Virus record (IMG/VR): IMGVR_UViG_3300043466_002526
Location: 1-48,716 of that record
Origin: a virus
Strand: one strand, 5' to 3'
Length of the DNA stretch: 48,716 bases
The notes below the pieces were generated by a model. That model saw only the letters and a program-made list of their open reading frames with translations, ran no database searches and was not told where the DNA came from. Shown here one piece after another: positions 4,636-48,401 of this stretch (position 1 is its first letter; every line of letters begins with the position of its first letter). The position numbers and the translations under genes are program-made.

Positions 4636-5094
4636 TTATCTAAGACCCTGGAATGGTTTTTTTTGTGAAGATTGTTGTGTTCTTCCATGTGCCGAACCTT
4701 GAGCTGAGAGTGTTTTAACTCTTTCTTCTGGGTTAAACTGTTGTAAATGTCTATTTATTTCACTTATAATTTTATTTTGTTTATCAGCAAAACCAAAAAC
4801 ATTCATACCATAACTTACTTCTTCCATATCCGTTGAGATGTAAGATCCTATTGTGCTATATCCAAGTTTTTTTACGGCAGCCAAAGCTTCCATATAATCA
4901 GCTTTATTTTTGATCATATATACGGCGTTTAAAACACCTCTCTCATCAGTACCCAAACCAGCTATTCCTTTTTTAATCGCATTAACAGCATTTTGTCCGT
5001 TTCCTTCATTTAGAAGACTTGTATTATTTTCATTAATCACTCTTTTTACAATTCTCACCAAATCTGACTCAGTTAATTTTACTATTTTTTTCAT
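4636..5094 (-). CDS. Leader protein with annexin-like GLGTDE module
   Basis: 152 residues. Residues 1-22 are the archetypal leader (MKKIVKLTESDLVRIVKRV, then INE), with a candidate prohead-protease cut after Glu22 (V-I-N-E). The mature part contains AIKKGIAGLGTDERGVLNAV at about residues 38-57, which resembles an annexin-type or GxGTDE helical repeat, followed by a second helical segment and a Gln/Ser-rich tail ending KKPFQGLR. The ATATTTAT promoter motif lies upstream (near 5122). I infer a virion-packaged protein; the biochemical function is unknown. Related GxGT-like modules appear in the proteins at 29596 and 39018. Confidence 0.75.
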   Translation of the reverse strand: MKKIVKLTESDLVRIVKRVINENNTSLLNEGNGQNAVNAIKKGIAGLGTDERGVLNAVYMIKNKADYMEALAAVKKLGYSTIGSYISTDMEEVSYGMNVFGFADKQNKIISEINRHLQQFNPEERVKTLSAQGSAHGRTQQSSQKKPFQGLR

Positions 5095-5154
5095 ATTTTA
5101 ATTTTAATTTGATTATTTACAATATAAATATATCGTGAATTGAAAAAGGAATAA

Positions 5155-6714
5155 TTATCCGTAAGTTTCCTCACTTCCTTCCTTATCAGTTGTTCCAACA
5201 CCTTTAGTTATTGTTTTAGTCCCGGCTTTAGTTGCCCCTATAATTTTTTCAGCTTTCTCAATCCCAGTTTCAGCTTTTTTAATACCTTTTGCTAACTTTA
5301 CAGTTTCTTTTCCGGTTTTTTTAGTTCCTTTTACAGAATGTGTAGCAACAACACCATTCATAATAACATCAAAAGTGTCACAATATGTTTTACCAGCTTG
5401 ACAAATCAAGGGTCTTACATTTTCTGTTGTTGCATTAGAACCAAGTTCAAATATTTTATCTTTAATCCAACTAACAGTTTTTTCATTTAACTTACTCATT
5501 ATATCTTTACCCAGAACATTTTCAATGGATTGGAATATTGGTCCTAAATTTGTTTTTGCGTATGTTGTAAAATATGCTGTTCCCTTTTGTAGTAATGTTG
5601 TTGTTTTTGGTATTGTTTTGGTTACTACTTTTCCTGCTGTTCCTTTTATTGCATTTACAATCTCATCCAAAAAAGCTGTAATCTTATTTAAAGATCCCAA
5701 TAACATATTACCAAAATTCTTTAGAAAGGATAATTTTGTAATTAACCAATTTACACCTTTTTTAATACCATCAATAACCCACTTTGCACCACCGGCGATT
5801 TTACCAACAATACTATTAAAAAATTGACTTAATTTTGGGAATTTTTGTGCCATTTTTCCAAAAAAACCAACTGCGGTTTTTTCAGCACCAAGAACTGCTT
5901 TAGTCCCTTGTAGTGGTTTTAAAGAGGTCTGTAATCCAATTCCAGACAATAATAATGAAAATGTGTCTAAAATTGCATCAAAAAAACTACCTTTACCTTT
6001 ATCCATTTGAACAAAATCCCAAGCTGTTAAAGCACCATAAATTAACATATTTGCCGCTTGCCCACCTGGTATAGCGGTTAAAATTAATGTTGCAACAGTT
6101 CCACCAATACCATTTACAATATCCCTAAATCCTTCCATTATTTGTTCTAAAGATAAACTTCTTAAAGAATCAATTGCTTTATCAGCACCTTTTACTACCA
6201 TACCAACTGGTGTATATCCCGCAACCTTTAGTAATACATTTCTATTAGCACCGGCATAACCCATTTTCTCAAGATTGTTCCAGATATTACCGTATTCACT
6301 ATCAAAATCACTCATTTCCGCATTCAACCAAGACTTTAAATTTGGATATTGTTTCCAACTTGCGATATACTTGTTTAAAGCATCAAGAGTTTCTTTATTC
6401 TGAATTTTTTTGATTGCAGCTAAAGCTACACCTTCGTTTGTCCCATCATTATCTTTCAAATCCTTATCACCATCAACATCAAAAGCCTTTAATAATTCAC
6501 CAAAAATTGTATAAGCTGTTTTATTGGCACTTGCTTGGATTTTTTGTTTAGCAGTTTTAATTTGTTCTGGTGTTAATTGTTGAGGTTGTGTTTGTTCAAA
6601 TAAAGTTTGTTCGGATATTTGAACTTCTTTTTGATCTTCAATACTTTTATTAATATCAAAATTCATTAAGTAGTTAATTCTATTGACTTCTTCTATTATT
6701 AAAGATTTTTTCAT
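5155..6714 (-). CDS. Leader protein with large hydrophobic core (candidate injected membrane-active protein)
   Basis: 519 residues starting MKKSLIIEEVNRINYLM. A [I]-S-E motif near residue 35 (VQISE) is followed by a Gln/Thr-rich stretch. Residues ~190-290 hold strongly hydrophobic, glycine-rich segments (for example GGTVATLILTAIPGGQAANM). Basic amphipathic segments follow, then a Lys/Thr/Gly-rich C-terminus. The hydrophobic module (MEGFRDIV... LILTAIPGG... WDFVQMDKGK) is paralogous to that of the gene at 45910. The ATG at 6714 follows the ATATTTAT motif; the longer in-frame start would run across the terminator at 6748. Membrane insertion or pore formation during DNA entry is a guess. Confidence 0.7.
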   Translation of the reverse strand: MKKSLIIEEVNRINYLMNFDINKSIEDQKEVQISEQTLFEQTQPQQLTPEQIKTAKQKIQASANKTAYTIFGELLKAFDVDGDKDLKDNDGTNEGVALAAIKKIQNKETLDALNKYIASWKQYPNLKSWLNAEMSDFDSEYGNIWNNLEKMGYAGANRNVLLKVAGYTPVGMVVKGADKAIDSLRSLSLEQIMEGFRDIVNGIGGTVATLILTAIPGGQAANMLIYGALTAWDFVQMDKGKGSFFDAILDTFSLLLSGIGLQTSLKPLQGTKAVLGAEKTAVGFFGKMAQKFPKLSQFFNSIVGKIAGGAKWVIDGIKKGVNWLITKLSFLKNFGNMLLGSLNKITAFLDEIVNAIKGTAGKVVTKTIPKTTTLLQKGTAYFTTYAKTNLGPIFQSIENVLGKDIMSKLNEKTVSWIKDKIFELGSNATTENVRPLICQAGKTYCDTFDVIMNGVVATHSVKGTKKTGKETVKLAKGIKKAETGIEKAEKIIGATKAGTKTITKGVGTTDKEGSEETYG

Positions 6715-6747
6715 ATATTGTATAAAATATAAATATATGATATATAC

Positions 6748-6773
6748 AAAAAAAGGATAACCAACCGTTATCC
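6748..6773 (-). terminator. Rho-independent terminator of the large ncRNA
   Basis: On the minus strand GGATAAC and GTTATCC pair around GGTTG and are followed by seven T. It closes the transcription unit that starts near 7707. Confidence 0.8.
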
Positions 6774-12682: not shown

Positions 12683-12740
12683 ATCACACTTTAAAACCGT
12701 AGAGGTACAACTTGTGTGTTTGTGTTGTTCATTTAATTGT

Positions 12741-12812
12741 AGTCCGTATGAGAATCGAACTCATGTTGCCGGGATGAAAACCCGGATTCCTATAACCACT
12801 AGAAGAACGGAC
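12741..12812 (-). tRNA. tRNA-Glu(TTC)
   Basis: Canonical cloverleaf: acceptor GTCCGTT/TACGGAC, anticodon arm CCGGG-TTTTCAT-CCCGG, T-arm ATGAG-TTCGATT-CTCAT. It is the first RNA after the promoter at 12831. Confidence 0.93.
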
Positions 12813-12830
12813 CATTTTAATTTGGTTTTA

Positions 12831-12862
12831 CAAAGATATGTATTTTATTTAATTCTAACAAA
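12831..12862 (-). promoter_or_regulatory. Array promoter (TTTG-N20-TATCTTTG), copy B
   Basis: Exact TTTG-N20-TATCTTTG on the minus strand, 18 nt before tRNA-Glu. It would drive the 12.8-12.0 kb RNA unit. Confidence 0.8.
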
Positions 12863-12967
12863 TCTTTTTTTAATTTTCTTTTCAAGTTTTCTTACAAAAT
12901 CAGATTTAAAATTAGTCTTAACAAATTTAACTTTCGATGATTCTGAAGTACCTGGTGAACTACCCAA
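12845..12967 (-). other. Open reading fragment downstream of tnpB, possible IS flank
   Basis: A 40-codon frame without ATG (possible TTG at 12967) overlaps the tnpB stop and ends FVRKLEKKIKKRFVRIK at the array promoter. A similar basic ending (KEKFKKDLVD) precedes the twin promoter at 18741. It may be the tail of a gene cut by the insertion, or simply the end of the IS. In IS200/IS605 elements this zone beyond tnpB also encodes the omega RNA. Confidence 0.25.
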
Positions 12968-14156: not shown

Positions 14157-14189
14157 TTATTATAAATATCTTGATTATCTACAAAAGAC

Positions 14190-14241
14190 AGAATTTTTGT
14201 AAAATGTTTGTATTCTGTGAAAACATATTTACAAAAATTCT
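14190..14241. repeat. 14-bp inverted repeat between tnpB and tnpA
   Basis: AGAATTTTTGTAAA (14190-14203) and TTTACAAAAATTCT (14228-14241) are perfect inverted copies flanking 24 nt, directly before tnpA. It could be regulatory or a remnant of an element end. Confidence 0.7.
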
Positions 14242-14246
14242 TTACT

Positions 14247-14717: not shown

Positions 14718-15056
14718 ATGAAAAAAGTAATTAGATTAACCGAATCCGATTTAACAAGAATTGTTAAACGAGTAATTAAAGAAGATTCATCTTTAAGAAA
14801 TATTGTTAAAGACAAGATTTCTTCATCAATGACAACATCTGGTAAATTTATAGAATCCGAACAAGAAATTAAAAATGATATTTTATCTTATTTAGATGAA
14901 TTATTAGACCAAGATATTGAACTGATACATCAATTAATCCAATTAAAAACTGGTGAAATATCAAGCAATGATGTTGACTTAATTAAATTTATGGAAATTG
15001 GTCAAAAATTAAATCAAAAATTAATGTCAATCGCTGGTAAGTATAACAAAAAATAA
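14718..15056 (+). CDS. Leader protein, 112 aa
   Basis: Residues 1-22 are the leader (MKKVIRLTESDLTRIVKRVI, then KE), with a candidate cut after Glu22 (V-I-K-E). The mature part is a helical, charged ~90-residue protein (ILSYLDELLDQDIELIHQLI) with no recognised domain. GGATATTTATATT lies ~20 nt upstream. It is one of the few leader genes on the plus strand. Confidence 0.7.
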   Translation: MKKVIRLTESDLTRIVKRVIKEDSSLRNIVKDKISSSMTTSGKFIESEQEIKNDILSYLDELLDQDIELIHQLIQLKTGEISSNDVDLIKFMEIGQKLNQKLMSIAGKYNKK

Positions 15057-20312: not shown

Positions 20313-20654
20313 TTATTTTTTAATTATTTTTGATAATTCAGATTTAATATCCCCCATTTCGTTAAATTTAAAATCTTTTCCAAATCTACTACCTTCTTTT
20401 TTTACTGTAATAGCATTTCTTCTGAACATAACTTGACCTACGTGTTCTCCATCACAATGAACCTCAAAATCGGTCCCAACTTGTTTTACTTTACAGTCTT
20501 TAGATTTTAAAAAATCTCTTATTTTATCTCGGAAATTTTCCATCTTAACATCAAGGTCTTTTTCCTTTGATGATTTTTCAATATTTCCTTCCTGGATTAC
20601 TCGTTTAACAATACGAGCTAAATCTGATTCTGTTATTCTTATAATTTTTTTCAT
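20313..20654 (-). CDS. Leader protein, 113 aa
   Basis: Residues 1-22 are the leader (MKKIIRITESDLARIVKRVI, then QE) with a candidate cut after Glu22. The mature part is charged, with a beta-rich segment KQVGTDFEVHCDGEHVGQVM and a basic RFGKDFKF stretch. No known domain. The ATG at 20654 lies 10 nt after GATATATTTAT. Confidence 0.7.
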   Translation of the reverse strand: MKKIIRITESDLARIVKRVIQEGNIEKSSKEKDLDVKMENFRDKIRDFLKSKDCKVKQVGTDFEVHCDGEHVGQVMFRRNAITVKKEGSRFGKDFKFNEMGDIKSELSKIIKK

Positions 20655-25730: not shown

Positions 25731-25747
25731 CCTGGGGATTTTTTTTA
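25714..25747. terminator. Terminator between converging genes
   Basis: ATCCCCA and TGGGGAT pair around AGTATAACC, followed by a T-run. Confidence 0.75.
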
Positions 25748-26167
25748 TTTATTTCTTTTTCTACTTTCTGACATTGTTCCAGGACTAAATGGTGATCCGG
25801 CACCTAATCTTCTTTTTGGGTCAGAATGACGAGGAACCCATTTAACATATTTGTCTTTGTTACCAACAATTTCCCATCTTCCTCTGTAATTATCTTCTTC
25901 AGCTTGACGCATAAGGGATTCTTTTTTTCTATCCCAATTATCATAAAACACATCTTCTTCTGGTATAGCGTCTAATTCAGATTTTAATTCATCACGCTTA
26001 GCATCTTTCTCTGATTCATCACCATAACCAGTAAAACCTCTTTTAATTCCTTTTCCTAAATCACCAAAGAAACCTTCTTCAACCTCAACATCTTGTTGTT
26101 CTTTGATTATTCTTTCAACCAAATGAATTAGTTCTGATTCGGTTAATCTAACTATTTTCTTTCCCAT
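25745..26167 (-). CDS. Leader protein, 140 aa
   Basis: Leader MGKKIVRLTESELIHLVERI followed by I-K-E, candidate cut after Glu23. The mature part is hydrophilic: a Gly/Glu segment (EGFFGDLGKGIKRGFTGYGD), charged helices, then YVKWVPRHSDPKRRLGAGSP. No known domain. ATATATTTATTATT lies ~40 nt upstream. Confidence 0.7.
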   Translation of the reverse strand: MGKKIVRLTESELIHLVERIIKEQQDVEVEEGFFGDLGKGIKRGFTGYGDESEKDAKRDELKSELDAIPEEDVFYDNWDRKKESLMRQAEEDNYRGRWEIVGNKDKYVKWVPRHSDPKRRLGAGSPFSPGTMSESRKRNK

Positions 26168-28169: not shown

Positions 28170-29576
28170 TTATCTCATTGTTTTTCTTTTTATTTCTTTC
28201 AAACTCAATCTAATGTTTCTTGAAAGAGATTCCTCAAGTTGTGTTCCTGCTTGTTGTGATGCTTTATTTTCTTCGGCATTAGGGCTAAATCTATTTGTTG
28301 ATGTATTTAATTCTCTTAACATTGTTTCATAATCTTTTCCACCAACACCAAGGAAACCTTTTAGATTTACTCTACCACATTTTCTAACCAATTTTTTTAA
28401 TGTTGTTAAAGTATCAAAATATTCATTCTCACCACCTTTATAATTACTACTATAAGTTTGGTTCATTGAATCAGCACATTCAGCATCATCATTAGATGCC
28501 ATACAAGCATGTAATACTGTTATTGCAGCTCTACACGAATCTTTATCAGCATATTGACTTTGAACATCTTTTATTGCTCTTTTAGCTTGTCTTCCAGACG
28601 CTGAGGTTTTTACAAATTCTTTATAATCTGAAACATTTATACCTTGTTTTCTTGCTTCTTCTTTTTGTTTTGCATTCATTGGCCAAATTTCTCTATCACC
28701 TTCAATCTCATTTGCATATTTTAATAAGACATCGTCACAATCACCACCTTGACAAAGTTTTTTAACTGAAGTTGGGTTTTTCGCCTCCTGTGTTCCAGGT
28801 AAAGCAGCATCTCTTGTATAACCCATTCTTTTTAACATTGCCTCAACTTCATCTGGAATGTCAAAACCTCTTTCTTCACCACCTAAACTTACCCAAATAA
28901 AATATTTTCCTGGTTCTGTAAATTCTTGTTTTAAACCATCCAATGATGTTTTTTTAATATATTGTTTTTTATCATTTACACCCATACCAGTATTCAAATC
29001 AACAGGTTCATATAGTGTTCCGATTCCAGATTTTGGTCTAACTTTTGTATAACTAAAATCGGTTTCTTTAGCCCCACTTGGACCAACAAGTTCTTCAACT
29101 CTAATTGATTGTTCGGCCGAAAGATTTTTAACATCAGATACAAAACTTTCACCTCTTTTTAATTCTGGACATACTAACTGATTTTCAGAATATGGTTTTT
29201 CTTTATTTCCAGTATCTTGTTTTACAAGTAAAAAAGCTCCTTTTGAATTTCTTTTGGCAAATACAAAAAATCTAAGATCATTTAACATAAATGATACATA
29301 TTGGTCACCGGCGTTGACATTATTAACACCAGAATTTCTTAATTTTTGAATATTCTCTGGTTTAATATTTCCGATTTTACTTATATTTTTAGCCCCTTTA
29401 TTCGTTAAACAACCAGCAGGTCCTGAAATCCAGGTTAGCCATTCTTCTGGTGTTTTAAAAGAAATAGCACTATCTTGTTCATTTAATATTTGTTCAGAAA
29501 TAAGTGGTTTTACATCACCCATTTTTGTTTCAAGAAGTCCAAGCATTCTTTTAATTTCTAAATTAACATTTTTCAT
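28170..29576 (-). CDS. Leader protein, 468 aa, unknown function
   Basis: N-terminus MKNVNLEIKRMLGLLETKMG with two candidate cut sites (L-I-S-E and I-L-N-E near residues 28 and 33). The remainder is soluble, with several Cys (GPAGCLTN, KLCQGGDCDD, CRAAITVLHACMASNDDAEC) that could form disulfides after export. A charged C-terminus LEESLSRNIRLSLKEIKR resembles the C-terminus of the 31073 protein (LDESLSMFKRIIK). No known domain. It is the third gene of a minus-strand operon. Confidence 0.7.
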   Translation of the reverse strand: MKNVNLEIKRMLGLLETKMGDVKPLISEQILNEQDSAISFKTPEEWLTWISGPAGCLTNKGAKNISKIGNIKPENIQKLRNSGVNNVNAGDQYVSFMLNDLRFFVFAKRNSKGAFLLVKQDTGNKEKPYSENQLVCPELKRGESFVSDVKNLSAEQSIRVEELVGPSGAKETDFSYTKVRPKSGIGTLYEPVDLNTGMGVNDKKQYIKKTSLDGLKQEFTEPGKYFIWVSLGGEERGFDIPDEVEAMLKRMGYTRDAALPGTQEAKNPTSVKKLCQGGDCDDVLLKYANEIEGDREIWPMNAKQKEEARKQGINVSDYKEFVKTSASGRQAKRAIKDVQSQYADKDSCRAAITVLHACMASNDDAECADSMNQTYSSNYKGGENEYFDTLTTLKKLVRKCGRVNLKGFLGVGGKDYETMLRELNTSTNRFSPNAEENKASQQAGTQLEESLSRNIRLSLKEIKRKTMR

Positions 29577-29595: not shown

Positions 29596-30462
29596 TTATA
29601 ATTCACCACAAATATCAGAAATATCGGATGTGGTTATTTTACTTTTTTTAATTTCACTTTGAACCAATTTATCAAGTTCATCATCATATTTACCTGTTTG
29701 TTCAAGACCTAAACATCCTTGAAGTTTTTTAATCTGGCCACCAGAAATTCCATCTTTACATCCTTTATAAAACTCACCAGAACAAACAACATAAGATAGA
29801 TCATCATCTTTTTCCGTTTCTGAACCCTTATTACCCCCACCTGGATCACGAAGACCTTCGTCCTCTTTGGTTTTATTTTCAATTTTTTTATAACCTGGAA
29901 CATCTCCATCAACTTCCATTGTTTTCTTTACAGCACCTGATAAACCATTCATTACAATTGTGTCAAAATTTTGATAAACCTCATCCATCAAAACTTCACC
30001 CAAGTCTTGAGTATAAAGTTTTTCATATTCTTTTTTAACTTTACAATAATCACCAATTGATCTTATTTTCTTTAATAATTTTGTTACAGTTTCATTATAT
30101 GTTCCCCAATCCATCCCCAATGTGTACCAATCACTCCAATTAAAAGACTTATTTAATTTTTTTGCAATATATTGATAATCATTTGGGTTGTTAAATGTTT
30201 TTAATTTACTAGAAGTTGGTATATCACACCCTTTATTGATTTGACTAAAAGCATCTTTACTTTTTTGTCCGGTTAATGAATCCCAATTTTTATAAAGTGC
30301 CGCAGCACCACCAGCCGCAAGACCAATACCAAGTAATGTCAAAAAAAACTCGTTTAGTGGTTCTTTATCCTCCTTTAGATACAATTGGTTTGTTGCTTTT
30401 TTGTGCATTTCAAGGATTCTCTGTTTCTCATATTGATCCAAAAAATATAAAGGTTTTTTCAT
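29596..30462 (-). CDS. Leader protein with peptidoglycan-binding-like C-terminus
   Basis: 288 residues. The leader MKKPLYFLDQYEKQRILEMH ends in L-K-E and L-N-E motifs (~31-38), followed by a glycine-zipper-like hydrophobic segment (FFLTLLGIGLAAGGAAALY). The middle, IRSIGDYCKVKKEYEKLYTQ, resembles an annexin-like/GxGT helical module. The C-terminal IKKLQGCLGLEQTGKYDDEL fits a PG_binding_1-type repeat. It is homologous in layout to the 39018 protein. I infer a virion protein contacting the cell wall during entry. Confidence 0.7.
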   Translation of the reverse strand: MKKPLYFLDQYEKQRILEMHKKATNQLYLKEDKEPLNEFFLTLLGIGLAAGGAAALYKNWDSLTGQKSKDAFSQINKGCDIPTSSKLKTFNNPNDYQYIAKKLNKSFNWSDWYTLGMDWGTYNETVTKLLKKIRSIGDYCKVKKEYEKLYTQDLGEVLMDEVYQNFDTIVMNGLSGAVKKTMEVDGDVPGYKKIENKTKEDEGLRDPGGGNKGSETEKDDDLSYVVCSGEFYKGCKDGISGGQIKKLQGCLGLEQTGKYDDELDKLVQSEIKKSKITTSDISDICGEL

Positions 30463-31072: not shown

Positions 31073-31648
31073 TTATTTGATAATTCTTTTAAACATACTA
31101 AGAGATTCATCAAGTTTTACAATGAAATCTTCTTTTAAATCATCTGGAACATCTTTAATTAGATCAATAGATAATTTATTATCAAAATCAATTTCATCAT
31201 CTTCATCGATTTCATATTCTTCATCATCTAAATAATCATCTTCAATAGCCATCATATCGGAGAAATCTTCCTCATCATCATAGTATGGATCATACATACT
31301 TCGGTCTTTATAGTCATCAGAATTTCCAGTAGAAAAGAATTCATATTCATCATCTCTATCCTCAACATCATCAAAATCTACGGTTCCATTTTTTAAATCA
31401 TCTGGACCGTCAGCAATCTTATCAAGAGGAATGTGTGACTCATTTATTCCAACATTTGTATAAGGTTTAACATTACCTTTATTTGATACAACAATACCAC
31501 CCTTATCATTCGCAAAATCTTGAACATATAATGGTTGTGTATTTGATTGTTGTCCAAATTGTGTTACATAACCATCATATATTGTTTTGTGTTGATCCAA
31601 AATATTATTTTTTTCGGTTTGTGACATTTTAAAGAAATATTGGTTCAT
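31073..31648 (-). CDS. Leader-like acidic protein (191 aa)
   Basis: N-terminus MNQYFFKMSQTEKNNILDQH resembles the EKxxILxxH leader subtype (compare MKKPLYFLDQYEKQRILEMH at 29596). Residues ~80-170 are extremely Asp/Glu/Tyr-rich and probably disordered. The C-terminus KLDESLSMFKRIIK has an L-D-E site. No enzymatic motif. Confidence 0.6.
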   Translation of the reverse strand: MNQYFFKMSQTEKNNILDQHKTIYDGYVTQFGQQSNTQPLYVQDFANDKGGIVVSNKGNVKPYTNVGINESHIPLDKIADGPDDLKNGTVDFDDVEDRDDEYEFFSTGNSDDYKDRSMYDPYYDDEEDFSDMMAIEDDYLDDEEYEIDEDDEIDFDNKLSIDLIKDVPDDLKEDFIVKLDESLSMFKRIIK

Positions 31649-32003: not shown

Positions 32004-32624
32004 ATGAAAATAATAGTAAAAGAATCTCAATATAGAAAACTAATTCTTGAAGAAAGAAAAATTATGTTTGAAAAAAAGTTAGAAAATATGAAAAACTTCT
32101 TTGGGGAATTAAGTGAAAACATCAAAAACCAGATTGGTTTGGATTTAACCTTTTTATCTACTTGGGGTGTAACTATTGCCGGATTTGTAAAACCAGTTCA
32201 AGATTTTATTGCAAATAAATTTGACGGAATATCACCTGACGATTTAGTGTTAATGTCTGTTGGTTTAATTTTGGTATATTATCAAAATAATAAAGAAAAA
32301 TTAAAAAGTGTTTTAGACGAAATAAAAGAAAGAAACCTAGTTGAGGTATTTGATGATACATTAAAAGTCGGTGAAAGATTAAGAAATGTGTTCGTTAAAT
32401 TTATAGAAAGTTTAGCAATACCTACTTTAAAATATTCTAATATATTGGCATATACTTTTATTATCCCACTAATTGGTGATTTGTTTAATTTAGTCCAAGG
32501 TGAATCAGATATGGTTAATCCAATTGATGTTGTAAAAAGAATTGGTGGATATATTGTTTTAAATTTGAGTGGTGAAATTGTTAAAAGAATTTTACTTGCA
32601 ATTGTAAGGAGATTTAAATCTTAA
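32004..32624 (+). CDS. Leader protein with hydrophobic helices (206 aa)
   Basis: Leader subtype MKIIVKESQYRKLILEERK with a candidate cut after Glu16-17. An amphipathic N-terminal half follows, then hydrophobic stretches DLVLMSVGLILVYYQ and ILAYTFIIPLIGDLFNLV, and a helical end ILLAIVRRFKS. It could be membrane-active. AATATTTATTTAG lies 12 nt before the ATG. It converges with the 32621 gene, overlapping by 4 nt. Confidence 0.65.
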   Translation: MKIIVKESQYRKLILEERKIMFEKKLENMKNFFGELSENIKNQIGLDLTFLSTWGVTIAGFVKPVQDFIANKFDGISPDDLVLMSVGLILVYYQNNKEKLKSVLDEIKERNLVEVFDDTLKVGERLRNVFVKFIESLAIPTLKYSNILAYTFIIPLIGDLFNLVQGESDMVNPIDVVKRIGGYIVLNLSGEIVKRILLAIVRRFKS

Positions 32625-34857: not shown

Positions 34858-35472
34858 TTACCAACTTCTTGATGATTTAAGTCCCAATTTTTTTCTATAT
34901 CTTGAAACATTACACGCCCAGTAACCAGCTTTTGTTCTATCTTTCTTTTGATCACATTTATGACGAGCTCTAAATGATTTTGCTCTTGATTTACTTGCGT
35001 TTCTAACTCTCAAATTAGGATCACCAAAAGTTACTTTTTTAATATTACCACTTGGTGATTTAACATATACAGCAAATTTCTTTGGTCCTCCTGGTGTTCT
35101 AAAAGGGCTATTTAATTTAACATTTTTTCCTCTGTGTTTTGCTTCGGTAATCGGTTCTTCCACCTCAATTGGGGCATCAAGCCAAACTTCCTCACCACTT
35201 TCAAGAATTACCTTTTTACCTAAATCACTTTCAACAATCCAAGTATCTTCTTCATTTAATTGGATTAAACCACGATTATATAATTTTCTTACTTCATTTA
35301 TTAAATTGAAATATTCATCAGAATAAATTCTAAAGATGTTTTCAGATAGTGTAATGTTATTATCCAAATGGTATTTCAAATTTTCAGACACTTTTACATT
35401 CTCAACTAATCTCATTGAGTGTGAATATATCTCAAGTAATGATTTTCTAATTATATTTTCTAAAATTCTCAT
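34858..35472 (-). CDS. DUF5872-like protein with several [L/I]-x-E sites
   Basis: 204 residues. The C-terminal ~95 residues (KLNSPFRTPGGPKKFAVYVK, then FGDPNLRVR and KSFRARHKCDQK...GYWACNVSRYRKKLG) match a domain I know from T4-like cyanophage proteins (DUF5872). In those, it follows an N-terminal region and a cut-like site. Here PITEAKHRGKN (~107-117) provides I-T-E just before the domain. This family link supports the idea that the leaders mark virion-packaged proteins. Confidence 0.7.
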   Translation of the reverse strand: MRILENIIRKSLLEIYSHSMRLVENVKVSENLKYHLDNNITLSENIFRIYSDEYFNLINEVRKLYNRGLIQLNEEDTWIVESDLGKKVILESGEEVWLDAPIEVEEPITEAKHRGKNVKLNSPFRTPGGPKKFAVYVKSPSGNIKKVTFGDPNLRVRNASKSRAKSFRARHKCDQKKDRTKAGYWACNVSRYRKKLGLKSSRSW

Positions 35473-35541: not shown

Positions 35542-36084
35542 ATGAAAAGAAATAGATTAAACGAAAGAGATATTACACGAATCATCAATCGTGTGCTAGC
35601 CGAACAAGAAAACCCAAGTTCAGAAAAAAAAGGTAAAAATAAGGAAGATGTAAAACCAAGATGTATTCCAGAAAATGTTGTTCCTTTAAATGAGATTGTT
35701 GGTTTTGCTGATGAGTATGTAAAATATTCTCCTGGAATTAAAAAAAGAAGAGCCGGTGTAAATTCAATGGTTGATACTATTGGTATTTTAAATAATCTTA
35801 GATGGGCTAACGATATTAAAGACGGTGGAGCACATTTAGCTTATGAAATGATGAACAATCTAAATCGTTTTAGAAATAAAAACTATTACGATGAAACAAC
35901 TGGTGATTGTCATAAAGCTATGGATAAAATTCTTGAATTATACAAAGAAAACGAACACGGAACTGAACTTGTTAAAGATATTGAGAGAGTTTTAGCTCTA
36001 CAAACAAAAGATGATGAATATACACCATCACCAAGAGCTAAAGAATATTTAAAACAATGTATTAACCTAATTAAAGGTCAATAA
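35542..36084 (+). CDS. Leader protein, 180 aa
   Basis: Leader MKRNRLNERDITRIINRVLAE, candidate cut after V-L-A-E (Glu21). A charged linker, then a helical domain with NMVPLNEIVGFADEYVKY-like and LNNLRWANDIKDGGAHLAYE segments. No recognised family. CATATTTATAGTA lies ~20 nt upstream and a terminator follows. Confidence 0.68.
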   Translation: MKRNRLNERDITRIINRVLAEQENPSSEKKGKNKEDVKPRCIPENVVPLNEIVGFADEYVKYSPGIKKRRAGVNSMVDTIGILNNLRWANDIKDGGAHLAYEMMNNLNRFRNKNYYDETTGDCHKAMDKILELYKENEHGTELVKDIERVLALQTKDDEYTPSPRAKEYLKQCINLIKGQ

Positions 36085-39017: not shown

Positions 39018-40163
39018 TTAATATTCTTCCCCACCAAACTCAACTTGGTCTGATGTTGGTTTTGGTTGTTCTATTTTTGTTTGATCACTATCCGGTATTT
39101 CAAGGTCTTGTCCACCATCTATTACTTTAGCACCACATAGTTTCTCAACATCAGCATCAGTAAAATAACTTCTACCAATTTTAGCACTTACAGCACTTAC
39201 TGTGTTTGGTCCCATTTTTCCGTCGGCACCAATTCCTAAACATCCTTGTACTTTTTTAATTGTATCTGAAACACAACCTTTTATATATGTTTCAGTACAA
39301 GTTTTATATTTTGTACCAGTTCCACCACCACCAGTATTACGCTCACGATAAATTATTGTTTGAGTTTCTTTTTTAATTTTTTCTTTTTCTTGTGGAGACG
39401 CGCTAGGACAAGCCCAATTTTGGGCTTCATATTCCGCTCTTGTTTTGAACCCACATTTTTTAGCATTAATTAATATTTGTGATGGACATTTGTATTGTGC
39501 GGCTTTATATGATTCAGTTGATTTATAACCACAATCTATTGCTTTTTTGTGTAAATCTTCTACTTTTTTCGGATCCGTAATTTTAGGTGTTTTTTTAATT
39601 AATTTTTCTAATGGCATCCAAACATAGTTCAACCATTCATTTTCTTGTTCAATATCACCATCAATTGCATCAAATAATGTTTCACCATAAATTCTATTAT
39701 ATCTATCACTTACAGCACAAAAATCAACAACTGTTTCACAACTTTGTAAAGCCCTTCTTAAATTATTCAATGAAGTATAACCCCAAGGTGTTAAAGCGTC
39801 GTGAATATCTGTTGCAATTTCTTTAATTCTGGAGTCATCTTTAGTTGGTTTTGAAAAATTATTTTTATTGGTTCTACAAAATTCAAATGTTTTTTTAACC
39901 CTATCATAACTCTTGCCGCCTGAACTAAGTAAATAACCAATTGCAGCACCAGCCACTGTGCCAATTACAGCACCAATCGGTCCACCAATTAAAGCCCCTG
40001 CTCCGGCACCAGTCCCGGCACCGACAGCTGACCAACCAGCGGATTGCGTCGGATCACCTTCATTTAATTGATTTTTTTGTTCTTGTAATAAACCTTTATA
40101 ATTGTAAAGAGACATTATTTCTCTTTTTTCATCTTCTGTTATTAAAAATCTTTTTGTTCCCAT
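39018..40163 (-). CDS. Leader protein with glycine zipper and peptidoglycan-binding-like domain
   Basis: 381 residues. Leader MGTKRFLITEDEKREIMSLY; candidate cuts at L-L-Q-E and Q-L-N-E (~27-35). A glycine-zipper segment follows (GAGTGAGAGALIGGPIGAVI, ~50-85). Next comes a helical repeat with WGYTSLNNLRRALQSCETVV like an annexin-type module, Cys-rich repeats (AIDCGYKS..., AKKCGFKT...), and IKKVQGCLGIGADGKMGPNT as a PG_binding_1-like unit. Layout matches the 29596 protein. Probably a virion protein involved in entry (inference). Confidence 0.72.
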   Translation of the reverse strand: MGTKRFLITEDEKREIMSLYNYKGLLQEQKNQLNEGDPTQSAGWSAVGAGTGAGAGALIGGPIGAVIGTVAGAAIGYLLSSGGKSYDRVKKTFEFCRTNKNNFSKPTKDDSRIKEIATDIHDALTPWGYTSLNNLRRALQSCETVVDFCAVSDRYNRIYGETLFDAIDGDIEQENEWLNYVWMPLEKLIKKTPKITDPKKVEDLHKKAIDCGYKSTESYKAAQYKCPSQILINAKKCGFKTRAEYEAQNWACPSASPQEKEKIKKETQTIIYRERNTGGGGTGTKYKTCTETYIKGCVSDTIKKVQGCLGIGADGKMGPNTVSAVSAKIGRSYFTDADVEKLCGAKVIDGGQDLEIPDSDQTKIEQPKPTSDQVEFGGEEY

Positions 40164-40205: not shown

Positions 40206-40748
40206 TTAATTCATGTCCGGTCTTTGGAATGGTTTTCCCTTTCTTAATCTTTTTCTAAATTTAGTATCGGCATCTTTTAGAGCATAAGCATAAGATTCAA
40301 CCCATTCTAAAACAATTGTTGTCATTTCTTCTAATTTACTTTTAACATTTTCTTTAGAAAAAATATCTTCACCCATGTTAATTAACATTCTTATTTTTTC
40401 TTGATACGACTCTAATTTTCTATGTAGTATTTCACTAATTTTAATAACTTCTTTATCTGTAAAATCTTGTAGAACAGTTTTTGACACACTATTTATTTCT
40501 GAAATTAAATCAATTGCTTCTTTTAGATTTTCTTTTAAATCTATATATTCAATAGTTTTTGAACTTGTCATTTCAGCTATACCCCTAAAAACCGTCATTA
40601 AATCTTTTAAAGTATCAATCAAAATAGACATAGACTTCCCACCATGTTGTAACATTTGGTCGAAATCATCATATCCAGCAGCCTCTTCTGAAATATAATT
40701 TACCAATTTTTCCAATTGATGTTCTGTCACAAGTATTTTTTTTCCCAT
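40206..40748 (-). CDS. Leader protein, helical (180 aa)
   Basis: Leader MGKKILVTEHQLEKLVNYIS with a candidate cut after Y-I-S-E (Glu21). The mature part is almost entirely helical (LIDTLKDLMTVFRGIAEMTS; SEILHRKLESYQEKIRMLIN). The C-terminus RKGKPFQRPDMN resembles KKPFQGLR in the 4636 protein, a possible shared C-terminal tag. It follows the 37-aa gene by a few nt. Confidence 0.68.
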   Translation of the reverse strand: MGKKILVTEHQLEKLVNYISEEAAGYDDFDQMLQHGGKSMSILIDTLKDLMTVFRGIAEMTSSKTIEYIDLKENLKEAIDLISEINSVSKTVLQDFTDKEVIKISEILHRKLESYQEKIRMLINMGEDIFSKENVKSKLEEMTTIVLEWVESYAYALKDADTKFRKRLRKGKPFQRPDMN

Positions 40749-40875: not shown

Positions 40876-41430
40876 TTACTCTGATTCTAATTTTTCAAAT
40901 ATTGGTTCACAAAAACCAATTAAAATTTGAAAATAATCATTTTCCATCCAGTTTATTATATCTTTGAGAGTGTCAAAATTTTTTGGTGGTGAAAAACTAT
41001 CATTAAAAACAATTTCATTATCATATGTACTACCATCATCATCTTCCCATGTGAAATATTCTAAGTCAATATGTAAATAGCATCGACCGTCCCAAAATGG
41101 TGTTGCATACCCATCAAGACGACTTTCTGTATTTTTTTTTGTTATAGAAAAATATACACTCCCAACAAATTCATCCTTCTCAATATAAACAGAATATTTG
41201 TCTGTGATATATTTTGTCATAACAACATTATCAATTATTAGTTTTGAAATAATATCATACAATTCATCACAACTAAATTTTGGTAATTTTACATTACCAA
41301 TAATTCCTATTAATACTGGAATTGTAATACCAAAAATATCTAATGTCTTTATAAATCCATTTTTTTCAAACGAGTTTGTAATAACAGTGATTAATTTTGA
41401 CTTTTGTGATTCGGAAATTAAATATTTCAT
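40876..41430 (-). CDS. Leader-like protein (184 aa)
   Basis: N-terminus MKYLISESQKSKLITVITNS is the ISESQ subtype with an L-I-S-E site at residues 4-7. The remainder is a mixed alpha/beta domain with YLHIDLEYFTWEDDDGSTYD. No family recognised. AGTATTTATTAAAATATG gives motif and start; a terminator separates it from 41505. Confidence 0.6.
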   Translation of the reverse strand: MKYLISESQKSKLITVITNSFEKNGFIKTLDIFGITIPVLIGIIGNVKLPKFSCDELYDIISKLIIDNVVMTKYITDKYSVYIEKDEFVGSVYFSITKKNTESRLDGYATPFWDGRCYLHIDLEYFTWEDDDGSTYDNEIVFNDSFSPPKNFDTLKDIINWMENDYFQILIGFCEPIFEKLESE

Positions 41431-41504: not shown

Positions 41505-42368
41505 CTATCTTTGTTGTTGGTATCCTTGTACTGCGCCTTGTACAGCACCTCTACCTGCTGACGCAATTCTACCAAAAATATTATCAGCTTTCATTCCAAG
41601 TGCTTGTCTGATTGGTTTTTTAAGTTCTTTTGTTAGTGGGTCACCACCAAACATCTTATCTAGATTATCCATTGCTTTTTCTCGTTGATCCGCAGGTGTA
41701 TTTAAGATATATTGACCGGCAGGTGATTTAGTCCAAGTGGTAATTTTTGTTTGTGTTGCTTGATCTAATGTTGCTAAATTTGGAAATTGTTTTAATAAAT
41801 CTTGTGTTGGTGTTCCGGCTAGTTGAGCTAAAGGTTTTGCACCACCACCTACTGTTGTTCCAGTTGTTATAACTTTACTTGAGAGTGACACACCAGATAA
41901 AGGTTTCAACTCCATTTTTTCAACTTTTGCGAAATTTAATTTACTGATTCCCTCAATAGCTTTAGGGTTTTTTGCCTCAGTCCAATCTTTAAATTTACCT
42001 TGTTTTGCAAATTCTTTAGCTTTTGTAGATACTGGTTCTTCTACTAATTTAAAATAGTATTTATCGCCTTCTTTTTTATAATAATAGTCTTTATCTTGTG
42101 CCTGTAAAATTTGGGTTGGTACATAGTTTTTATCACCTTGTGCTTGAGATGTTGCGGTTTCTTGTTTCGGTACTGCAGTTGGGGTAGTTGCAGTTGGGGT
42201 AGTTGCAGTTGGGGTAGTTGCAGTTGGGGTAGTTGGTTGAGTTATTGCTAAATCTTCCGGTTCTCCAGCTCCAGCCATTTGTTCTGAAATAAATTCTTTT
42301 TTAATTGCATTAATGTGCATTCCAAGAATTCTACTTTTTTCTTCTTCTGATATAATAAATTTTTTCAT
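41505..42368 (-). CDS. Leader protein with Thr/Pro repeats (287 aa)
   Basis: Leader MKKFIISEEEKSRILGMHIN, then a candidate cut at F-I-S-E (~residue 30). Residues ~45-65 are four TTPTA repeats encoded by a perfect 15-nt tandem repeat. A Gln/Lys-rich middle follows and a helical C-terminal half (FPNLATLDQATQTKITTWTK; EKAMDNLDKMFGGDPLTKEL). No known domain. TAATATTTATAAATA lies upstream. Confidence 0.7.
   Translation of the reverse strand: MKKFIISEEEKSRILGMHINAIKKEFISEQMAGAGEPEDLAITQPTTPTATTPTATTPTATTPTAVPKQETATSQAQGDKNYVPTQILQAQDKDYYYKKEGDKYYFKLVEEPVSTKAKEFAKQGKFKDWTEAKNPKAIEGISKLNFAKVEKMELKPLSGVSLSSKVITTGTTVGGGAKPLAQLAGTPTQDLLKQFPNLATLDQATQTKITTWTKSPAGQYILNTPADQREKAMDNLDKMFGGDPLTKELKKPIRQALGMKADNIFGRIASAGRGAVQGAVQGYQQQR
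42175..42234. repeat. 15-nt tandem repeat, four exact copies
   Basis: GCAGTTGGGGTAGTT repeated four times inside the 41505 gene, encoding Thr/Pro/Ala repeats. Likely to vary in copy number by slippage. Confidence 0.9.
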
Positions 42369-42895: not shown

Positions 42896-43387
42896 TTAAG
42901 GTTTTTTAACTGGTTGAGGTTGTGCAGCACCAGGTTTTTGTGGTTGTGGTTGGAAACCTGCAACCCAACCATCAACGGCAGCTTTAAGACCTGGTTGTGG
43001 TAATTGTTGTAATGTTTTCGGTAGATTTTTATTAAAATTAATATTAAACGCTTGAATGATGGAATTTCCAATTAATCTTGGTCCACCCTGTGTTAGCATA
43101 ATAGAAATATCTTGAGCCTCACCAACTTGTGTGTTTCCATACATAAATTTATATAATACTCTATCACCACTAGCAACTCTTTGTACAGTTAATTTAGCTT
43201 GTGGGAACTGTGGATTTTGTTTTATTTTTAAATCAATTTCTTTATTTAAAATTCCGGCAACTTGATTCATAATCTGAGATACAGTACCTTCAGTATCAAT
43301 TGCTTCAGTTAAAAATTGTTTTGAGATTACACTTTTGTGCATTCCAAGAATTCTTGATCTTTCTTCTTCGGTAATGATTAGTTTCAT
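42896..43387 (-). CDS. Leader protein, 163 aa
   Basis: Leader MKLIITEEERSRILGMHKSV with a candidate cut at F-L-T-E (~residue 28). The leader is nearly the same as in 41505 although the mature parts differ. The mature part has ITQIMNQVAGILNKEI-like helix and VQRVASGDRVLYKFMYGNTQ, and a Pro/Gln-rich tail. GATATTTATAAAA lies upstream. Confidence 0.7.
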   Translation of the reverse strand: MKLIITEEERSRILGMHKSVISKQFLTEAIDTEGTVSQIMNQVAGILNKEIDLKIKQNPQFPQAKLTVQRVASGDRVLYKFMYGNTQVGEAQDISIMLTQGGPRLIGNSIIQAFNINFNKNLPKTLQQLPQPGLKAAVDGWVAGFQPQPQKPGAAQPQPVKKP

Positions 43388-43725: not shown

Positions 43726-44112
43726 TTATTTTTGTTTTTTTCTTTCCCAGGCTTGACGAAGTTTTATCTCATATCTTTTTTTCAGATATGGTATTAACTT
43801 CCAATAAATTGATGCTACTTCATCAAAACCATCTTCACTATAAATTAAACCATAATGTGGATCTTGTTCAGTTTCAATCTCATCATCTTTTCTATGAACC
43901 ACAAATTCGTGAAGTAAATCACCAAGAATATCATCGACAAACAAATCAAAATCATTTCTAAATGGCATAGCATAAATGTGATGACCCAATTCTTTATCAA
44001 GCCATTCCAAATCAAACATTGTTAATCTTCTTTTTAAAAATGGTGGTAACTCTGAAAATAAACCTTTAATGTGTTCGGATTCTTTTAAGACTTTTCTAAT
44101 TAGGGATTTCAT
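43726..44112 (-). CDS. LPPFLKRR-family protein with leader (128 aa)
   Basis: 128 residues. Leader MKSLIRKVLKESEHIKGLFS with V-L-K-E; then ELPPFLKRRLTMFDLEWLDK, an acidic central part, and WKLIPYLKKRYEIKLRQAWE. It is a paralogue of the 45524 protein. No known function. Confidence 0.6.
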   Translation of the reverse strand: MKSLIRKVLKESEHIKGLFSELPPFLKRRLTMFDLEWLDKELGHHIYAMPFRNDFDLFVDDILGDLLHEFVVHRKDDEIETEQDPHYGLIYSEDGFDEVASIYWKLIPYLKKRYEIKLRQAWERKKQK

Positions 44113-45523: not shown

Positions 45524-45898
45524 TTATAATGATTTTTTTCTTTCCCAGTTAAGATGCAACCGGTCTTTATACCTTTTTTCAAGAAATGGTTTTAATTCCC
45601 AATACATATCCATAACCTTATCTCGGCTGGTCTCATCCCAAAGATGTTCATCATAGTCCTCATCATAATATGTATCAATTTCATCACCCTTTTTTTCGGA
45701 TACAAAATCATGCAAAAGATTGCCAATAATACAATCAGAAAAATCTTCAAATTTATTTACGGGAGGCGTTGCTATAATAAAACGACTTACATTCTCATCA
45801 AACCATTCCAAATCTTCCATTGTAACCCTTCGTTTAAGAAATGAGGGAAGATCCAAAAATAATCTTTCATATTGTGATTCCGTTATAAGGATTTTCAT
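45524..45898 (-). CDS. LPSFLKRR-family protein with leader (124 aa)
   Basis: Leader MKILITESQYERLFLD (L-I-T-E at residues 4-7), then LPSFLKRRVTMEDLEWFDEN, an acidic Tyr/Asp-rich segment (DTYYDEDYDEHLWDE) and YWELKPFLEKRYKDRLHLNW. Paralogue of 43726. Unknown function. Confidence 0.6.
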   Translation of the reverse strand: MKILITESQYERLFLDLPSFLKRRVTMEDLEWFDENVSRFIIATPPVNKFEDFSDCIIGNLLHDFVSEKKGDEIDTYYDEDYDEHLWDETSRDKVMDMYWELKPFLEKRYKDRLHLNWERKKSL

Positions 45899-45909: not shown

Positions 45910-46926
45910 TTAATGATGACCACCGGCCACGGCGGCGGCCAAAGCATGGCCCGCTTGATGGGTGGTGTAATGTGTTCCAGCATGTTGAGCCGTGTGTTGA
46001 GCCGTATGTTTTGTCTTACTTAAAGAAGATACCAATTTACCTTCTTGCACAACAAACGCATTCTCAATTTTGGTCAATATGGATGAAACCGAAGTTGATA
46101 ATTGATTACTCAATTTAATTAGACCTTTATAAATGGCGGTATTTTTTAAATTTTTCCCAAAATAACTTATTAATTTTTTAATATGTTCGGCAATTTTGGG
46201 GACAAATGATTTAATTGCTTTTACCAATTTTAGGACATATTTAAAAACTTTTGGGGTGTTCTTACTAATTGCCCTTGCAAAAACCTCAATAGATTGATTT
46301 GCAAATTTAGCAACGGGTGATAATGCCTTTTTAACAAACTTACCACCAGGACCGGTTGTTACAACCGCACATAGATCAACAATGATATTAAACCAATCCC
46401 ATTTATTTTTATTTACACCCAACATAACATCATAAACCGTTAATAAGGACCACGCCCCAACATTAATAAATTGACCAATACCAGGAAGTACTTCAAGTAT
46501 TAATTGAACCACAAATCCGGTTCCACTTGTTAAGAACTCCCTTAAACCTTCCATAAATTGATCAAATGTAATTGATGTTAGTTTTTTTAAAGGTTCGCTC
46601 CAGCCTTTTACTACTTCACCTGATTGTTTTGCACTTAATCCTTGTGCCCAACCACCCATACTTTGTTCTGTAATATATGAATCATCATATTTGAATGGTG
46701 TTTTAAATGTCCCCCTTGTTTTAAACTTACCAACAAATTCTTTGAAGAGTTCAAAATCCAAACCCATTTCTTTAACCTTATCTATTATTTCTTGTCTTTC
46801 GGCTCGTTCGGTTGAAACCACAAACTCAATTGCCAATGACCTTTCATTAACATCTTCACTTTCGTTAATAACTCGTTTAACAATACGAACTAAATCTGAT
46901 TCTGTAAGTCTAATAATCTTTTTCAT
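45910..46926 (-). CDS. Leader protein with hydrophobic core, paralogue of 5155 (338 aa)
   Basis: Leader MKKIIRLTESDLVRIVKRVI, then NE (cut after Glu22). Residues ~100-200 carry FMEGLREFLTSGTGFVVQLI and LPGIGQFINVGAWSLLTVYD hydrophobic segments, matching the 5155 protein. Basic amphipathic helices follow and a His/Ala/Thr-rich C-terminus (HTAQHTAQHAG...AGGHH). I infer a packaged, membrane-active protein. GATATATTTATTATTATG gives motif and start. Confidence 0.72.
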   Translation of the reverse strand: MKKIIRLTESDLVRIVKRVINESEDVNERSLAIEFVVSTERAERQEIIDKVKEMGLDFELFKEFVGKFKTRGTFKTPFKYDDSYITEQSMGGWAQGLSAKQSGEVVKGWSEPLKKLTSITFDQFMEGLREFLTSGTGFVVQLILEVLPGIGQFINVGAWSLLTVYDVMLGVNKNKWDWFNIIVDLCAVVTTGPGGKFVKKALSPVAKFANQSIEVFARAISKNTPKVFKYVLKLVKAIKSFVPKIAEHIKKLISYFGKNLKNTAIYKGLIKLSNQLSTSVSSILTKIENAFVVQEGKLVSSLSKTKHTAQHTAQHAGTHYTTHQAGHALAAAVAGGHH

Positions 46927-47000
46927 AATAATAAATATATCATAAAATAAAAAACCCCACTCTTATTTGGAATGGGGGTTATAATACATTAAGAATAAAA

Positions 47001-47378
47001 TTATTCGGTAAAATCAATACCCAACAAAGGATTCCAATTTTCTATAATATATTCCAAAACCTCATCATATTCCTCTTCATCAATTTCTTCCTCATAATGT
47101 TCACCGTCAACATAAACAACATCATTATCAATATCTTCAGGATAAAGACGAATAAAGTTTTCCATAAAGTAATCCGAATCACAACCAATTATTTTGTAAA
47201 CCTCAATATAATCTTGATACACATTAACATATTCAGGATCAACTAAGTTATTCTTGGTAAGTAATGACATTAATTTTCGAACATTTTCATCCGGTGGTGA
47301 AGTCAATCTATTTTCTTTAATCACTCGTTTAACAATACGAGCTAGATCTGATTCTGTTAGTCTAATTATTTTTTTCAT
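47001..47378 (-). CDS. Leader protein, acidic (125 aa)
   Basis: Leader MKKIIRLTESDLARIVKRVI, then KE (cut after Glu22). The ~100-residue mature protein is acidic and mixed alpha/beta (VNVYQDYIEVYKIIGCDSDY; EHYEEEIDEEEYDEVLEYII). No known domain. GGTATTTATTATTATG gives motif and start. Confidence 0.7.
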   Translation of the reverse strand: MKKIIRLTESDLARIVKRVIKENRLTSPPDENVRKLMSLLTKNNLVDPEYVNVYQDYIEVYKIIGCDSDYFMENFIRLYPEDIDNDVVYVDGEHYEEEIDEEEYDEVLEYIIENWNPLLGIDFTE

Positions 47379-47380
47379 AA

Positions 47381-47675
47381 TAATAAATACCTTGATTTTC
47401 TCAAAATTTTTCCAAAAATATTTTTTTAGAATTTGGGTTTTATTTTAGAAGGGGGTCGTGTTTTGTGGGGAATCATTTTATAACCCCGGAAATTGGGGAA
47501 ATTTTACCCAGAAATTTTTTTACGAATACTTCATTTTTGGGATTGAGCCCCCTATTTCCCTGTCAAAATGTCATATATGGGGGGGATACGGGAGGGGGGA
47601 GGGGGTAATAATGTCAGACCCCCATATGGGAGGGGGGTATATATACCATAAGCCCCCACTCGGTCAAATTGTCAG
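47381..47675. other. Gene-free G-rich region
   Basis: About 295 nt with no supported gene. The plus strand is unusually G-rich for this genome, with the quadruplex-like tract at 47579 and a CCCCCATATGGGAGGGGGG-type dyad at ~47619-47637. Confidence 0.5.
47579..47605 (+). other. G-quadruplex-forming tract
   Basis: Four runs of 7, 3, 6 and 5 G separated by loops of 4, 1 and 1 nt on the plus strand. Confidence 0.6.
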
Positions 47676-48401
47676 TTATAATTTATCAACATCAACCTGT
47701 GGATAAAAATAATTAATCTCAAGATTGATTGGTTCTTTTTCATCTCTCCAGTTAATAAATAATCTTGGGTTCTCGGTCGCAGTTCTTACAAAGTATCCAT
47801 CTGACCTTCCTTCAAACTTTGTGATTATCATACTGGAGGGAATCATTTTATAATACTCATTCATTAGATCATTTATCCTATCATTAAGTTTTATAACCTC
47901 ATCTCTATATTTTATATCAACATATCTCATTAGATACATTCCTCGTTCTTCAAGTAGGTCCAACATATGATCCTTCAAATATTCTTTTGGGGGTCTTGTG
48001 TTTGTTAGTTTATAGAACTTATTTAGATCAACATCAACATCAACATAAATTGATGTTCCATAACCATCCTCATATTGGGGATTCAATGATATTATAAATG
48101 GATAATGTTTTTTAATCATCTTTGATAGAATATCAAATCCTTTTTGTTTTTCATTGATTGATTCATTCATTGGTTGGTCATTCGTTTCTTCAATGTCCAT
48201 TTCCCCAATGATTTTTGTATTGTCATCCAGGGATTCCTTCCACTGATTATATTCTTCTTCGTTATTAAATTCCATTAACTTTGATTCGTAGTATTCCCCC
48301 TTGTCGTCAGTTATGTGTAGGGCAATTCCCTTTGTTATTGGTTTATCTTCTTCCAATAATAATTTGGTTAATTGTTCTTCCGTTATAATATACTTTTTCA
48401 T
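47676..48401 (-). CDS. Leader protein (241 aa)
   Basis: Leader MKKYIITEEQLTKLLLEEDK with L-L-E-E. The mature part has an acidic N-terminal half (EEYNQWKESLDDNTKIIGEM) with a second M-N-E/I-N-E site near residue 80, and a beta-rich C-terminal half (YGTSIYVDVDVDLNKFYKLT). No known domain. The gene lies 3 nt behind the next gene upstream, in an operon. Confidence 0.65.
   Translation of the reverse strand: MKKYIITEEQLTKLLLEEDKPITKGIALHITDDKGEYYESKLMEFNNEEEYNQWKESLDDNTKIIGEMDIEETNDQPMNESINEKQKGFDILSKMIKKHYPFIISLNPQYEDGYGTSIYVDVDVDLNKFYKLTNTRPPKEYLKDHMLDLLEERGMYLMRYVDIKYRDEVIKLNDRINDLMNEYYKMIPSSMIITKFEGRSDGYFVRTATENPRLFINWRDEKEPINLEINYFYPQVDVDKL

Follow-up and report, generated by a model that had tools for sequence, protein, structure and literature searches.

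A short leader on unrelated proteins of uncultured T4-like phages, read as a predicted capsid-targeting propeptide

Leader genes of the window and related contigs

The IMG/VR virus record IMGVR_UViG_3300043466_002526 was analysed over positions 1 to 48,716 (hereafter the window, 48.7 kb), a fragment of a larger phage genome in which many otherwise unrelated proteins begin with variants of a short leader. All open reading frames (ORFs) of the window were translated, and the leader calls were made from these translations (Table 1). Six ORFs open with near-identical MKKIIRLTESDLxRIVKRVI[NKQ]E (type A), and a search of the window for the DNA pattern of type A finds it 5 times, versus 0.00 in 100 shuffles; the other forms are ITEEEKxRILGMH (type B), the short MKIIITESQYxxL (type C) and a short helix such as MKSLIRKVLKE (type D). 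A first-pass annotation had listed about 20 window proteins with such a leader, in the subtypes RLTESDL, EEExSRILGMH and ITESQ. The translations show these subtypes as types A, B and C, plus D, and the leader is present at most of the ORFs named; those at 2224, 7972 and 36666, already called weaker, failed on inspection of their translations, and the gene at 34858 had been missed. The likely real start of 5155, whose N-terminus is divergent, is an ATG within a longer TTG ORF, and the true start of 20313 is the Met at residue 10 of the longest ORF.

Table 1. Leader genes of the window. The arrow marks the predicted cut; G002 and G005 are related contigs.
Position (strand)	Leader	Protein and relatives
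4636..5094 (-)	type A, residues 1-22, ...VINE↓N	small helical cargo, GLGTDE annexin-like signature
5155..6726 (-)	type-B-like, MKKSLIIEEVNRINYLM...ISEQ	~520-aa tape-measure-like/membrane-type protein
14718..15056 (+)	type A, ...VIKE↓D	beside IS200/IS605 element; gene missing in collinear G005
20313..20651 (-)	type A, ...VIQE↓G	full-length gene missing in G005
25745..26167 (-)	type A variant, RLTESELIHLVERIIKE↓Q	
28170..29576 (-)	divergent type-B-like, PLISE↓Q end	N-terminus kept in G002 (PLINE↓Q)
29596..30462 (-)	type B, EKQRILEMHKKATNQLYLKE↓D	G002 129288: same leader, other cargo
31073..31648 (-)	divergent type-B-like N-terminus, EKNNILDQHK, kept in G002	acidic protein
32004..32624 (+)	type C, MKIIVKESQYRKLILEE	probable membrane protein
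34858..35472 (-)	type D, MRILENIIRKSLLE (G002: MRILENIIKRVIKE)	phrog_7595 C-terminal domain
35542..36084 (+)	type-A-like, RLNERDITRIINRVLAE↓Q	homology to G002 gene with clear leader
39018..40163 (-)	type B	32-residue leader identical to G005, central domain different, C-terminal domain common
40206..40748 (-)	type-A-like, LVTEHQLEKLVNYISE↓E (G002: KLTESELKTVITKIIE↓Q)	homology to G002 gene with clear leader
40876..41430 (-)	type C, MKYLISESQKSKL	
41505..42368 (-)	type B, IISEEEKSRILGMH...EFISE↓Q	
42896..43387 (-)	type B, IITEEERSRILGMH...QFLTE↓A	
43726..44112 (-)	type D, MKSLIRKVLKE↓SEHIK	paralogue of 45524, different leader
45524..45898 (-)	type C, MKILITE↓SQYERL	paralogue of 43726
45910..46926 (-)	type A, ...VINE↓S	338-aa membrane-type protein
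47001..47378 (-)	type A, ...VIKE↓N	neighbouring G005 position (80362): same leader, different cargo
47676..48401 (-)	C/A-like, IITEEQLTKLLLEE	leader related to type C

Positions 34.4-82.3 kb of G005, a 257-kb contig, are collinear with the window (75-99% identity, 68% of the window covered), and the 4636 protein recurs unchanged in G005. The large leader-bearing contigs examined measure 117-349 kb, and a leader profile search returned 5-15 type A copies in each of eleven of them. With strict patterns for all types, candidate leader proteins number 36 in G005, 36 in G002, 28 in G001 and 31 in G006. Thousands of internal Met positions served as a control; the patterns for types A, B and C matched 0 of them and that for type D 0-5 per genome, so the type D counts contain some noise. 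At 84-88 kb of G005, seven proteins in a run start with MNLQE[SN]IRRILREE or close variants and are apparently different thereafter. Genes starting with MKIIITESQ or MKYLITESQ stand in dense runs in G001 (1-3 kb and 292-294 kb), G006 (3-9 kb) and G002 (238-242 kb); the G002 run consists of paralogues of one family, present in multiple copies (SLKEKLLGLIKKVGFES), and one copy sits a short way upstream of the gene for the prohead protease.

Conservation, exchange and predicted cleavage

Over 136 proteins the type A consensus is MKKxxRLTESDLxRIVKRVIxE, about 22 residues at the N-terminus. A degenerate DNA pattern for TE[S]DLxRIVK matched at least 119 stretches of IMG/VR contigs; among the matches listed, each of the 138 occurrences in viral contigs is preceded in frame by an ATG at a distance of 5-13 codons (exactly 7 codons in 106 cases), and 3 of the 138 are placed C-terminally. 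The sister types EEKxRILxMH...FLxE (B), MKIIITESQ (C) and the short IIKKVLKE form (D) are likewise N-terminal, the profile matches falling at the N-terminus in 39/40 cases for type B and 102/105 for type C. Behind these leaders the mature parts are indeed unrelated, as had been claimed: 135 distinct type A proteins carry cargos of 114 unrelated clusters, and the 286 leader proteins of types A-C pooled give 166 clusters of mature parts. Between Met and the Glu at +14 (counting the T of TESDL as 0) each column of the 135 proteins holds ~1-4.3 bits of information; the value is 1.05 bits at P1′ (Q/N/E/D/S) and falls to ~0 from +16 onward. Codon entropy within the leader is near the genome average at several sites (Thr 1.66 versus 1.68 bits) and moderately lower elsewhere; since the codons vary while the peptide is conserved, selection acts mainly on the peptide and not merely on copied DNA.

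The leader helix is strongly amphipathic, with a hydrophobic moment of 0.83 versus 0.28 for random and 0.37 for shuffled segments, and all leader types begin with an N-cap-like [S/T]-E-x-[D/E/Q]; AlphaFold places the leader, at low confidence, in a helix (residues 9-26) apart from the cargo. Sec and Tat signal peptides have a positive n-region, a hydrophobic core of 7-15 residues and an AxA cut. The leader matches neither kind: its helix is amphipathic and charged, and both the hydrophobic core and the AxA are missing.

Among near relatives, cargos are swapped behind one leader and leaders before one cargo. Window 39018 and G005 71914 have the leader and the C-terminal domain in common and different central domains, and 47001 and G005 80362, at neighbouring and apparently equivalent positions, keep the leader with different cargos (Table 1). 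In the YMFFSNL family some phages have the type A leader at full length and others just its second half (MNLNSIIKKVLKE), with the same end point, while in L035 and L116 type A and type B leaders stand ahead of cargo of the same cluster.

The conserved region closes on a motif ending in Glu. [LIVMF]xE lies at +14 to +19 in 236/240 non-redundant N-terminal type A leaders, at +14 in 199/240 and, one helical turn later, at +18 in 34/240 (HRIVKESVNRVL form); the longer type A form, LTESDLHRIVKESVNRVLxE (34/240), has four additional residues, one helical turn, and retains the [VIL]xE end. A terminal [LIV]-x-E at one position is found in 121/135 type A proteins versus a 2% per-position background. 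For type B the site is near position 28 in 9/11, versus 4/22 control stretches (p=0.0007). The [L/I/V]-x-E that the annotation had assigned to the leaders at large is thus fixed for type A and supported for type B. The clade capsid proteins carry LINE↓A/S near residue 65-70 in 11 cases and LLKE↓A in G003; the leader ends VINE, VIKE and VLNE are the same motif as this predicted LINE↓A/S cut, which lies where T4 gp23 is cut with removal of 65 residues. As to type C, the paralogues 43726 (MKSLIRKVLKE↓SEHIKGLFSELPPFLKRR) and 45524 (MKILITE↓SQYERLFLDLPSFLKRR) can be aligned starting directly behind KE in the first and ITE in the second, and therefore ITE at leader residues 5-7 is itself the likely type C cut, as in T4 Alt, judging from this one family.

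Leaders also occur away from the N-terminus. Copies at the extreme C-terminus were taken by script filtering from a scan without frame restriction, which returned mostly N-terminal matches, and 5/6 of them (4 families) have no Glu (p=1e-7), as would be expected if the role of the Glu were to release cargo downstream. These C-terminal leaders, mostly without terminal Glu, are found in L042, L030, L023/L497 and L067/L484, and the tagged carrier of L067/L484 is similar to a family whose gene directly follows the capsid gene in G001 and G006. In L057 a second, internal leader lies between two cargos and keeps its Glu (...VLTE) ahead of the second.

Head genes, upstream element and cargo

The gp21-like prohead protease that the annotation had called for was found in leader-bearing contigs, the window's collinear relative among them: Peptidase_S77 (PF03420) scores above the curated cut-off in 13/16 leader contigs, G005 included (best E 8e-13 to 5e-28), with catalytic-type motifs around His (NHPESS) and Ser (GISSRG). 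Where its neighbourhood was examined, T4-like portal, acidic scaffold-like and Gp23 genes lie around it; G002 has Pfam Portal_T4 and Gp23, and G005 a Gp23-like capsid protein with a T4-type head module. Among isolates, the clade capsid protein is nearest to those of Microcystis phage Mel-JY01 and Flavobacterium phage immuto, and relatives point, as a guess, to a Bacteroidota host. The G002 portal gene is interrupted by an intein (L142:2873-5968), and the G003 S77 protease gene by an intein-like insertion (L190:5809-7632).

Leader genes also share an upstream element with virion genes. TATTTAT precedes 49/64 leader genes and 24/32 virion genes, as against 4/26 replication genes and 272/1009 of all others; it is an AT-rich element in an AT-rich genome, and the contrast between gene classes is nonetheless large. 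The element resembles a late promoter, and the expression signals of the leader genes look late.

A domain can be recognised in few of the 136 leader proteins, which come from separate clusters. Some have a peptidoglycan-binding or LysM domain, others belong to GH24 lysozyme or further endolysin families, and there are also an M78/IrrE-type peptidase, a protein with an annexin-like repeat and an ECF sigma factor. The roles that the annotation proposed, wall hydrolase among them, can be recognised for a minority of cargos only, and the composition suits, rather than proves, the delivery of effectors. The annexin-like label of the 4636 cargo, diverged family members of which occur in G002 and L117, is drawn from its GxGTDE signature and one Pfam annexin match among the 136 proteins; its AlphaFold model (mean pLDDT 66) had no PDB match at E<=0.001. 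The ECF-type sigma factor (L104:2357-2935) has an MKIIITESQ leader and lies inside a run of leader genes; it is a candidate injected protein, or else a late regulator with this N-terminus by chance.

Window 12960-14657 is an IS200/IS605-type element (TnpB with OrfB_IS605 and Cas12f1-like TNB domains, Y1 transposase) directly beside 14718, and this segment, the leader gene included, is missing in collinear G005. In the Prevotella-type contigs L200, L204, L221, L222, L224 and L227 a leader gene of the H-type (26 residues) adjoins an IS1595-family transposase gene; the pairs are convergent in five, abutting or overlapping at the stop codons, though the leader proteins differ, which suggests a mobile element capturing or targeting leader genes. 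Twenty predicted tRNA genes lie among HNH and GIY-YIG endonuclease genes at 12739-27727, one prediction (15188-15267) having a four-base anticodon, and a rhomboid-family membrane protease gene, unexpected for a phage, occupies 3838-4605 (PF01694, E 1.6e-15).

A predicted capsid-targeting propeptide and its alternatives

Read directly from the sequence are the conservation of the leader with its sharp end, the unrelated cargos, the exchange of leaders and cargos, the co-occurring T4-like head genes and protease, and the shared late-type upstream element. With high confidence we take the leader to be a propeptide that targets proteins to the capsid as in T4 and is taken off by the S77 protease; the proteins bearing it would form a large, modular set that is ejected. 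Cleavage, packaging in virions, core binding, injection and activity in the next host are what we infer for its course. The leader, a short amphipathic helix whose N-cap reads [S/T]-E-x-[D/E/Q], would presumably attach to the scaffold core as the head is built, late in infection; the gp21-family protease would cut after the Glu of [V/I/L]-[I/L]-x-E, and the mature cargo, released within the head, would be ejected along with the DNA. Several interchangeable leader classes would in this way mark a fast-changing set of ~30 cargos per genome. The annotation had already proposed a T4-type packaging tag, a reading that held up in each genomic test able to overturn it (the protease, the capsid motif, the late-like signals, the end at Glu and the exchange), and went beyond the evidence as regards cleavage, presence in virions and injection, the type C site and the discriminating value of S77.

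A number of observations weigh against this propeptide model. Downstream of type C leaders [LIV]xE occurs at chance (26/51 versus 48/102, p=0.73), and some type C cargos, for example the ECF sigma factor or a GH24 lysozyme, might do their work late in the cell that made them, without injection. S77 was not found in 3/16 leader contigs, possibly fragments, nor in the window, itself a fragment. Its presence was dropped as a discriminating test, as 4-5/9 random viral contigs of at least 100 kb were also positive, with a leader match in one (Fisher p 0.09-0.2); the packaging model needs the protease, but its presence does not single out leader genomes. In the collection searched, no isolated phage has a type A leader: tblastn of the leader 23-mer against 50,697 phage records gave no match, and profile A1 had 0 hits in immuto, LR756502, LR756511 and Mel-JY01 and 1 weak hit in LR756508, immuto having at most a few leader candidates, e.g. 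MKKQILSEQFKRMQFLAGIITE. H-type leaders are found, moreover, in chromosomes of Prevotella/Segatella with no phage head module visible around them, which the model leaves unexplained unless they are captured phage genes.

Those chromosomal leaders, together with the ability of amphipathic Lys/Arg-rich helices to bind membranes or import factors, could be taken to mean that the leader, cleaved or kept, targets proteins elsewhere in the infected cell (a phage nucleus or replication compartment, a membrane, an inclusion) and not into heads. We regard this as very improbable, as conservation ends exactly at a prohead-protease-type site matching the clade capsid precursor, the late-type upstream element is common to leader and virion genes, the head module is T4-like (no search for chimallin was made) and the leader is without the hydrophobic core of Sec signals. 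The leaders might instead be structural or assembly propeptides of head-core proteins, their cargos being scaffold or virion parts kept in the particle or degraded; a leader gene of G003 (267665) adjoins the S77 gene, some cargos show tape-measure-like profile similarity, and a C-terminally tagged protein family is encoded beside the capsid gene in G001/G006. This is unlikely, however, given that cargo turnover among near-identical phages is atypical of structural parts and that lysozyme, LysM, peptidoglycan-binding, M78 peptidase and sigma factor domains are found among the cargos. Promoter and start region might also form a recombination or expression cassette that spreads new genes behind a functionless peptide. 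This would account for the common TATTTAT and for the leader genes beside mobile elements (IS200/IS605 at 12.96-14.66 kb; IS1595 in Prevotella), but is hardly credible, since the peptide is conserved while codons vary, the terminal Glu persists in the longer form despite its extra helical turn, and the Glu is mostly lost in C-terminal copies.

The propeptide model has close precedents. The T4 protease gp21 and related enzymes cleave behind a Glu that closes a short motif, and the N-terminal cut of T4 Alt is at ITE-6 (PMC5694885); a conserved capsid-targeting sequence on a diverse protein set is established for the internal proteins (PMC3012670, PMC12373910); Ip1-3 have no homology apart from the leader, and at least 10 internal proteins occur across T-evens (PMC12373910). 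Like T4 IPI/IPII/IPIII and Alt, the present genes combine a short N-terminal peptide on unrelated proteins, a motif ending in Glu, T4-like head genes and hypervariable cargo, a likeness of pattern seen here from genes alone, and the proposed MKIIITE↓SQ cut of type C parallels that of Alt. Unlike T4, the leader has 22 residues (26 in the H-type) against propeptides of 10-20, several leader classes coexist in one genome of an uncultured clade, C-terminal and internal tags occur, and there are ~30 candidate genes per genome against three internal proteins and Alt. In phiKZ and SPN3US, too, ejected proteins are processed after Glu by the prohead protease (SPN3US gp245), and the diverged paralogues gp53/gp54 have identical N-termini (PMC5694885), processing being predicted here; their propeptides, however, mostly exceed 100 residues, with an A-x-E motif in SPN3US, whereas ours are short, modular and set before unrelated cargos. 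The Dar antirestriction proteins of phage P1, reported to be head-associated and to defend the entering DNA (PMC12810830), offer a further likeness, head association being predicted here, but they are few. That the leader works like the T4 internal-protein system is well supported; strict identity with it is a proposal. In the literature searched the leader motif strings were absent, and we found no description of such a leader in huge phages; as far as that search reaches, the leader families, their number per genome, the mixed classes, the placing at C-termini and inside proteins, and the uncultured T4-like clade are new.

A broader proposal, which we put forward tentatively and as somewhat short of probable, is that of a general head-loading address code, in which interchangeable leader classes at the N-terminus, the C-terminus or inside polyproteins would deliver at least 30 different proteins per virion, among them the ECF sigma factor, peptidases and cell-wall enzymes. 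Take-over of the host would thereby begin with a pre-made proteome. A gene fused to a leader would then be a newly recruited cargo.

T4 IPI, Ip2 and Ip3 belong to the class of first-minute effectors and anti-defence proteins. If the propeptide model is true, hundreds of small proteins of unknown function would become candidates for that class, and the leader would offer both a natural toolkit to load proteins into phage heads and a sequence key by which the injected proteins of an uncultured phage could be read off from its genome alone. The T4 capsid-targeting principle would then extend from a handful of proteins to roughly one tenth of the genes in an abundant environmental phage group.

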